Origin: Pseudoalteromonas piratica
Lineage (GTDB): Bacteria > Pseudomonadota > Gammaproteobacteria > Enterobacterales > Alteromonadaceae
Direction of reading: 5' to 3'
Length of the DNA: 64,000 nt
NCBI RefSeq assembly: GCF_000788395.1
Contig: NZ_CP009888.1
Span: 881,001-945,000 of the forward strand
A program made the translations under genes and the position numbers. The first letter of the stretch is position 1. Each line of letters opens with the position of its first letter. A model generated the notes under the pieces. The model saw only the letters and a program-made list of their open reading frames with translations, ran no database searches and was not told the origin of the DNA. Below, one piece after another: positions 41,767 to 42,282 of the stretch.

Positions 41767-41843
41767 CGCGGGATGGAGCAGCCTGGTAGCTCGTCGGGCT
41801 CATAACCCGAAGGTCGTCGGTTCAAATCCGGCTCCCGCAACCA
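41767..41843 (+). tRNA. Initiator tRNA-fMet (CAT), copy 2
   Basis: 77 nt, identical in sequence to copy 1, with CCA encoded. Its 3' end is the first member of the downstream repeat series. Confidence 0.97.
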
Positions 41844-41897
41844 TTTCTTGTTTTTCCATATAATTCAAACTTATTAATCAAGTATATTTCGCCCTAC

Positions 41898-41944
41898 GGT
41901 CGTCGTTAGTGCCTAACGCGTATCAAATCCGGCTCCCGCAACCA
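41898..41944 (+). pseudogene. tRNA-fMet 3' fragment 1 with hairpin insertion
   Basis: GGTCGTCG and TCAAATCCGGCTCCCGCAACCA are identical to the variable/T-arm and acceptor 3' end of tRNA-fMet. In place of the two T-stem bases between them stands TTAGTGCCTAACGCGTA, which makes the hairpin CGTTAG-TGC-CTAACG (41904-41918). No 5' half of a tRNA precedes it, so it cannot fold as tRNA. Confidence 0.8.
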
Positions 41945-41999
41945 TTTCTTGTTTTTCTCTTATAATCCTAATTTAATAATCAAACTTACTTTGCCCTAC

Positions 42000-42045
42000 G
42001 GTCGTCGTTGGTGCCCAACGCGTATCAAATCGGCTCCCGCAACTA
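42000..42045 (+). pseudogene. tRNA-fMet 3' fragment 2 with hairpin insertion
   Basis: Same layout as fragment 1 but the hairpin is CGTTGG-TGC-CCAACG (42006-42020): the A-T pair of fragment 1 is replaced by G-C. One C of the T-arm is lost (CAAATCGGC), and the end is CTA instead of CCA. Confidence 0.8.
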
Positions 42046-42099
42046 TTTCTTATTTTTCCATATAATTCAAATTTATTAATCAAGTATATTTCGCCCTAC

Positions 42100-42145
42100 G
42101 GTCGTCGTTGGTGCCCAACGCATATCAAATCGGCTCCCGCAACCA
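42100..42145 (+). pseudogene. tRNA-fMet 3' fragment 3 with hairpin insertion
   Basis: Hairpin CGTTGG-TGC-CCAACG at 42106-42120, followed by CATAT rather than CGTAT. It shares the C deletion with fragment 2 but keeps CCA. Confidence 0.8.
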
Positions 42146-42282
42146 TTTCTTGTTTTTCCCTTATTATCCTAATTTAATAATCCAAAATATTTCGTCTTAT
42201 TATTGTCTTCGTTATAGATATTCAATATTTACCTAAATCCGGTTTCTGGAAGTTTTCCTATATCTGAACTCTTATTTTTAAA

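Follow-up and report, generated by a model that had tools for sequence, protein, structure and literature searches.

The closest described relatives of the repeats analyzed here are the tRNA-linked repeats (TLRs) of Escherichia coli, which were first described in 1978; 22 of them, distributed over ten loci, are reported (PMC8144298, citing Egan and Landy 1978, Rudd 1999). At their 3' end, 18-19 bp are identical to the upstream tRNA or rRNA (PMC8144298). The same paper presents TLRs as a class without known function before its own study of three rRNA-linked members, an early claim for tyrT having been retracted; RrA, RrB and RrF, located between dual rrn terminators, are described there as small RNAs, for which transcription and binding of Hfq and CsrA are reported (PMC8144298). 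RtT is reported to be liberated from tRNA transcripts (PMC4986893), rtT to be similar to some attenuator candidates (PMC2965389), and 3'ETS-leuZ to be a sponge RNA (PMC6191717).

Here we analyzed an array of repeats behind a tRNA-fMet gene of Pseudoalteromonas piratica, located in a stretch of 64,000 nucleotides (the window). In the open-licence literature we found no description of tRNA-fMet-linked repeats of Pseudoalteromonas; what appears to be new is a TLR on tRNA-fMet in this genus, with a small T-arm hairpin that seems to be conserved by structure in three families. With a probability of roughly one half, we read the array as TLRs in the 3' trailer of an initiator-tRNA operon, where read-through, Rho-type termination and processing would take place and where the hairpin would be selected for its structure.

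Three tRNA-linked repeats behind a tRNA-fMet gene

The operon hosting the array consists of two tRNA-fMet genes located between a gene of the inositol monophosphatase family, the product of which we take to be CysQ-like, and a convergent GNAT gene (Table 1). The second tRNA-fMet gene directly precedes the array, and the repeated tail is the 3' end of this gene; the first base of unit 1 immediately follows the tRNA CCA. TRF gave a period of 101, 3.7 copies and a score of 553 for the array. Each unit is composed of an AT-rich spacer of 46 or 47 nt, the prefix CGCCCTACGGTCGT, which by eye resembles tRNA-fMet from the 3' side of the anticodon arm onward, a hairpin of 15 nt and, at the end, the tRNA tail, which reads TCAAATCCGGCTCCCGCAACCA in unit 1. 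All hairpins of the window units have a perfect 6-bp stem and a 3-nt loop. Full identity to the tRNA over the 22-nt tail is found in unit 1 only; units 2 and 3 have shorter matching runs because of a 1-nt deletion (AAATCGG) in the tail, and the tail of unit 2 additionally carries a C to T change near its end. When the own genome was searched at the DNA level (E up to 0.001), the array was found in one place only; the other two matches were tRNA-fMet tails, one of the first gene and the other of a third fMet gene (L003), which is without extra tails.

Table 1. Positions of the array, its parts and the neighboring genes in the window
Feature	Position	Strand	Remarks
Upstream gene, inositol monophosphatase family	40720..41511	+	PF00459; locus marker
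tRNA-fMet gene 1 (CAU)	41617..41693	+	ARAGORN; Rfam tRNA 61.3 bits
tRNA-fMet gene 2 (CAU)	41767..41843	+	ARAGORN; Rfam tRNA 61.3 bits
Repeat unit 1 (spacer of type A, core, tail matching the tRNA 3' end over all 22 nt)	41844..41944	+	101 bp
Hairpin of unit 1, CGTTAG-TGC-CTAACG	41904..41918	+	
Repeat unit 2 (spacer of type B, core, tail lacking 1 nt and ending in CTA)	41945..42045	+	101 bp
Hairpin of unit 2, CGTTGG-TGC-CCAACG	42006..42020	+	
Repeat unit 3 (spacer of type A, core, tail lacking 1 nt)	42046..42145	+	100 bp
Hairpin of unit 3, CGTTGG-TGC-CCAACG	42106..42120	+	
Fourth spacer (B type) and plausible remnant of a decayed fourth unit	42146..42250	+	Spacer 87% identical to that of unit 2
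Weak terminator-like stem at the end of the fourth-unit remnant	42238-42250	+	Count no more than chance
Convergent GNAT acetyltransferase gene directly behind the array	42283..42747	-	PF13508/PF00583

A sequence-only reading of this DNA had described three units of about 101 bp that repeat the tRNA 3' end behind the second tRNA-fMet gene, which agrees with the unit lengths found here, and a change from A-T to G-C on both sides of the hairpin between unit 1 and units 2 and 3, which is real when the hairpin sequences are read. Its decayed fourth unit is plausible as well, given the remnant AAATCCGG at about 42235 and the related spacer in front of it. Its statement that the hairpin replaces part of the T-arm has to be corrected: compared to the tRNA, 14 nt are inserted after GGTCGTCG, within the T-stem, together with a small change from GTTC to GTATC, which is not a swap of equal length.

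By the hallmarks of its sequence the array is a set of tRNA-linked repeats (TLR; E. coli rtT/rttR class), an already known class that the sequence-only reading had missed. It is located directly behind a tRNA gene in a tRNA operon; a tail of 18-19 bp or more is present in unit 1, with 22 nt, and only in part in units 2 and 3; and its three units plus a decayed one compare with one to five copies per locus in E. coli. In contrast to the E. coli TLRs, it is linked to tRNA-fMet, and it has a unit of about 100 bp, a single 14-nt T-arm hairpin and a tail deletion in units 2 and 3. RtT/rttR (RF00391) shares with the array the T-arm interrupted by a hairpin, the tRNA tail at the 3' end (19 nt in RtT/rttR), the two tRNA genes and a G-poor spacer, but has several larger hairpins, a 178-bp step and tRNA-Tyr. 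In E. coli MG1655, the tyrTV locus contains four extra tails, each with 19 nt identical to the tRNA and with the T-arm broken by hairpins, and the annotated rttR (171 nt) ends at the last base of a tail. No extra tails were found at E. coli metZWV, which contains three fMet genes, with up to 3 mismatches allowed. The Rfam RtT covariance model did not match in the window from 41600 to 42300 (E up to 5), nor, at E up to 1 and 0.1, in any of 22 related loci outside E. coli, and the E. coli tyrTV control gave four matches of 132.9-137.5 bits; identity with Rfam RtT is therefore ruled out.

Growth of the array

Judging from its repeats, the array has clearly grown by tandem duplication of the tRNA 3' end plus trailer beside tRNA genes. 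Spacers 1 and 3 are 96% identical and spacers 2 and 4 are 87% identical, compared to 79% for the remaining four pairs in the window. This A-B-A-B order bears out the doubling of a dimer of about 201 bp that had been proposed for the locus, but only for the spacers. The cores speak against the dimer: units 2 and 3 both lack the same nucleotide (AAATCGG) and both have G-C in the hairpin, a pattern that points to conversion or a more complex history and to no clean doubling. Unit 1 is probably the derived form, with both sides of the stem changed to A-T, because the hairpins of Pseudoalteromonas sp. P1-9 (L044) and of another genome of the genus, G002 (L004), have the G-C form.

Truncated units across the genus

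The survey of the genus covered 59 genomes, namely 58 of 60 same-genus genomes (G034 and G065 were left out) and P1-9, which may duplicate one of them. In 34 of the 59, a set in which some loci stop at contig ends or contain runs of N, one or more truncated copies of the tRNA-fMet 3' part with the GGTCGTCG core were detected. The remaining 25 genomes are without any unit under the rule applied, showing that neither array nor hairpin is universal; three of the loci counted as empty do carry units that the rule missed (G002, with its decayed tail, G072 and G080). Simple rules divided 101 truncated units, which take in four loci of other families, into type B (56), hairpin type (15), pairable T-arm (15) and other (15), whereby hairpin units of G022 (one), G097 (one) and G040 were misplaced under other and three hairpin-type units of G049 under intact T-arm. 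Type B units have a GGTTCRCTCTTCATAAA-like sequence in the T-arm and lack the 14-nt hairpin, and no convincing compensated pairs or covariation were found among 38 distinct units of this type from 20 genomes. One hairpin common to all truncated units is ruled out by type B.

Unit copy number in the genus ranges from none to ten, as would be expected of a neutral satellite, in which truncated copies arise by unequal crossing over and conversion between neighboring tRNA-fMet genes and grow and decay without function. The fMet genes themselves are tandem, the A-B-A-B doubling and the deletion common to units 2 and 3 speak for recent turnover, and folding energies are ordinary (see below). We nevertheless regard a purely neutral origin as somewhat unlikely, in view of the near relatives of the locus and of the covariation of the hairpin.

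Conservation in near relatives

The nearest named loci are those of Pseudoalteromonas sp. P1-9 and sp. G4, and the G4 contig stops in the first tRNA. P1-9 has preserved the whole gene order of the locus and contains one complete unit. The same inositol monophosphatase neighbor is present there and in G002, which has a single unit with a decayed tail and with core and hairpin intact. In G016 (L005), the tRNA 3' part is directly followed by the terminal spacer, and the contig ends at that point. Comparison of the window units with G002 gave identities of 90-97% for the hairpin-containing core (30 nt), 64-72% for the tail and 55-67% for the spacers. Compared to P1-9, unit 1 is identical at 23/25 positions of the tail and 28/30 of the core, and the spacers are 51-65% identical; because the P1-9 tail is kept as well as the core, the special conservation of the hairpin rests on G002.

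The tRNA does not contain the hairpin, so conversion from the tRNA is unable to restore the core. Since the core is kept against G002 and is not repairable in this way, the comparison points to constraint on the core. Both observations are at odds with a neutral satellite, and so is the covariation over three families described in the following.

The T-arm hairpin in three families

Copies beyond its own strain, the absence of which would have counted against the case made in the sequence-only reading, were found: a 14-nt insert at the same place of the T-arm is present in six other genomes of the genus (G005, G007, G011, G022, G075, G077) and in six of two other families, with G049 and G097 in the second family and G396, G881, G192 and G866 in the third. 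Most carriers were identified without a hairpin criterion, by DNA or tail similarity or by gapped patterns. G075 and G077 were found via the hairpin model, which over the 60 same-genus genomes gave six own-genome matches, with the three units among the matches listed. A gapped exact pattern that is blind to the hairpin matched three of 394 genomes of the order (the own genome, G049, G396), all of them with perfect hairpins of five or six pairs. A fixed pattern with 14 N and up to 3 mismatches, likewise hairpin-blind, matched four of 146 genomes of one family, and in three of these a five-pair hairpin was in register, whereas one (G192) was without it. An exact hairpin-blind pattern matched in 369 class genomes the own genome only, and on this one pattern (1/369) a class-wide feature is ruled out.

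An alignment of 25 units gave a covariation score of 0.733 over units of three families, compared to 0.204 in shuffled versions (0/500) and at most 0.210 in slid versions. Few independent lineages are represented in it, and insert length served to select its rows once the hairpin was known. Poor hairpins of the right length were retained, and the 28-nt inserts of G049, the longer G097 unit and the shifted G040 hairpin were excluded. The stem is paired in 82.7% of 150 cells, and changes on both sides are present in 47 cells. The outermost stem pair is unpaired in 11 of the 25 units, and the four inner pairs each show three pair types. Further compensatory changes are thus present, and a single covarying pair, as counted earlier, was an overly cautious estimate. 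Shuffling each of 15 distinct inserts gives an expectation of 39.7 pairs; 72 out of a possible 90 are in fact formed, and poorly pairing inserts exist (2/6 pairs in G192, 3/6 in G097). Because of this covariation and the conservation against G002, the view that the T-arm hairpin is kept by selection on structure is supported at the level of sequence.

Matched stem changes may also arise in DNA, by template switching in the course of quasi-palindrome correction and not by selection on RNA. Unit 1 is changed on both sides relative to P1-9 and G002, as would result from a single switch, and other perfect short palindromes, such as CGACC-TNC-GGTCG, are located just before the hairpin in G011 and G049. 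We consider this explanation unlikely, since it explains neither why, across families, the insert stays at one position, mostly measures 14 nt and has a 3-nt loop, nor why the core is conserved against G002.

Structured RNA, mobile element or integration remnant

From the sequence, two options had been offered for the units, structured RNA or a small tRNA-derived repeat element. The first is strengthened by the covariation of the hairpin in three families and by hairpin and prefix being the parts best kept against G002; folding energies do not add to it. The folding energy of the whole array equals that of dinucleotide shuffles (z 0.00), and ten single units gave z values of -0.94 to 0.79 against shuffles. 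These energies lend a structured RNA no support, although one short hairpin within a long, AU-rich transcript would not necessarily be visible in such a test.

As a mobile element, the second option is not supported, since the array occupies one place in its own genome and gave 0 matches in 50,697 phage and 72,556 plasmid records. All array copies examined are located in tRNA-fMet loci, not more than about 1.1 kb behind the last tRNA gene. A REP-like element with a hairpin-recognizing transposase is ruled out by the single place in the own genome. The GCCTAAC of the hairpin resembles what we take to be the core half-site of integron attC, and an attC site is ruled out because hairpins of other species are without GCCTAAC.

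Integration could also leave such repeats behind, as attachment sites from elements that use the tRNA-fMet 3' end. The segment from T-loop to CCA is a usual att block and is the block repeated here, and a tail in G005 is located about 1.1 kb behind the last tRNA. Against such remnants stand the tRNA sequence on both sides of the insert and the regular unit steps, which range from 58 bp (G024) to 157 bp (G007); together with the missing matches in the same phage and plasmid records, this makes integration remnants very improbable.

Possible termination behind the tRNA genes

On the tRNA strand the array has a C/G ratio of 1.94 over 302 nt, a value reached by 0.03% of 12,520 overlapping windows (64 kb, both strands). 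It is C-rich and G-poor, which is the composition of a Rho-dependent terminator. Weak secondary structure is another property of such terminators, and here the shuffle-like folding energy of the array (z 0.00) speaks neither for nor against one. An intrinsic terminator beyond chance was not detected in the window array (1 site, compared to a mean of 1.2 in shuffles of 41400-42800). In E. coli, transcription of tyrT ends Rho-dependently within its repeats, and the spacer adjoining tyrV contains 18 C and 6 G in 58 nt.

Terminator-like sites, for example CACGCGAAAGCGTGTTTTTTT, are present in 20 of 38 array loci, with 0 to 0.30 expected per shuffled locus; in one of the 20 (G033) the sole site is located inside the tRNA-like core. 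About one such site per unit is found in G001, G007, G020, G049, G070 and G073. These relatives resemble RrA, RrB and RrF in that terminators alternate with TLR units downstream of a stable RNA gene, and differ from them in the tail, which is that of 5S rRNA in the E. coli case as reported (PMC8144298).

The median C/G ratio of masked spacers was 0.84 in loci with a T7 run (n=16) and 1.79 in loci without (n=16; Mann-Whitney p=0.0002), in a comparison that ignores kinship and applies a crude T7 rule, by which G030, G031 and G032, with terminator-like sites, are in the group without and G040, with none, in the group with. Two of the 38 loci were dropped because of short regions and four of the remaining 36 because of fewer than 25 unmasked bases; G062, all N, entered with a ratio of 1. 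This split is expected if termination in the units is of either the intrinsic or the Rho type.

A model for the initiator-tRNA trailer

Under the preferred reading as TLRs in the trailer of the initiator-tRNA operon, the array would most likely be transcribed via read-through from the operon. The C-rich, G-poor spacers would form a zone of Rho-type termination ahead of the convergent GNAT gene, which makes sense because the operon runs head-on into this gene; in several relatives about one intrinsic terminator per unit would take the place of this zone. Transcripts that enter the array may be cut behind the CCA-like tails, resulting in short RNAs of about 100 nt, a cleavage suggested by the annotated E. 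coli rttR, which ends exactly at the CCA of its repeat. The T-arm hairpin might perhaps prevent the orphan tail from folding as a T-arm and give the trailer RNA a defined stable element. Ordinary marine bacteria thereby offer a system in which two functions can be tested: termination of a tRNA operon by a Rho-type mechanism, and an RNA processed from the initiator-tRNA trailer. The fast-turning arrays combine a T-arm hairpin conserved by structure in several lineages with a terminator that seemingly has two exchangeable forms.

A stronger claim would be that the units define a structured trailer RNA family of initiator-tRNA operons, in which a 14-nt T-arm hairpin, kept by compensatory changes in three families, makes a processed small RNA out of an orphan tRNA tail, and this RNA would terminate the transcription of initiator tRNA or serve as its gauge. 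We hold this to be distinctly unlikely as it stands; if true, it would give a function to one kind of TLR, a class that has been without one since 1978. More doubtful still is a role of the processed units in trans, as small RNAs or sponges in the manner of 3'ETS-leuZ or RrA/B/F. Trailer RNAs of tRNA and rRNA operons provide precedents (PMC6191717, PMC8144298), and 3'ETS-leuZ, which is reported to act by pairing with RyhB, likewise originates from a tRNA-operon 3' trailer (PMC6191717). The U-rich spacers could bind Hfq, but the spacers are also the likely pairing parts, and they are poorly conserved.

Further tRNA-fMet-derived repeats

Other arrangements derived from tRNA-fMet were observed in the course of the survey. 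A third type of truncated copy, in which the tail is preserved and a CTCAGCTCTTCATTAGCCAGC-like sequence has taken the place of the anticodon arm, is present in nine genomes of the genus (L013, L021, L033, L034, L037, L080, L082, L083, L091). At L110 (G049:C2:82000-84500), seven truncated units have six terminator-like sites among them, and the MicX small-RNA model gave a sub-threshold match of 36.1 bits (cut-off 75). Near full-length pseudo-tRNAs beside intact tRNA-fMet genes were found at L121, L124, L125 and L126 (family f6); their anticodon arm is replaced by CTCACTCTCTAAAAAAGAGTC-like hairpins, and some also carry a T-arm hairpin. Five tandem 122-bp units are located upstream of another tRNA-fMet gene at L102 (G080:C1:178300-179600, about 251-1061), and the arrangement recurs at L103 (G014). 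The L102 units copy the middle of tRNA-fMet with the T-arm intact and without the acceptor end, and in this they mirror the truncated units. Intact tRNA-fMet genes form very regular arrays at L010 (G043), with seven genes at 163-bp steps, and at L022 (G059), with five genes at 116-119-bp steps.
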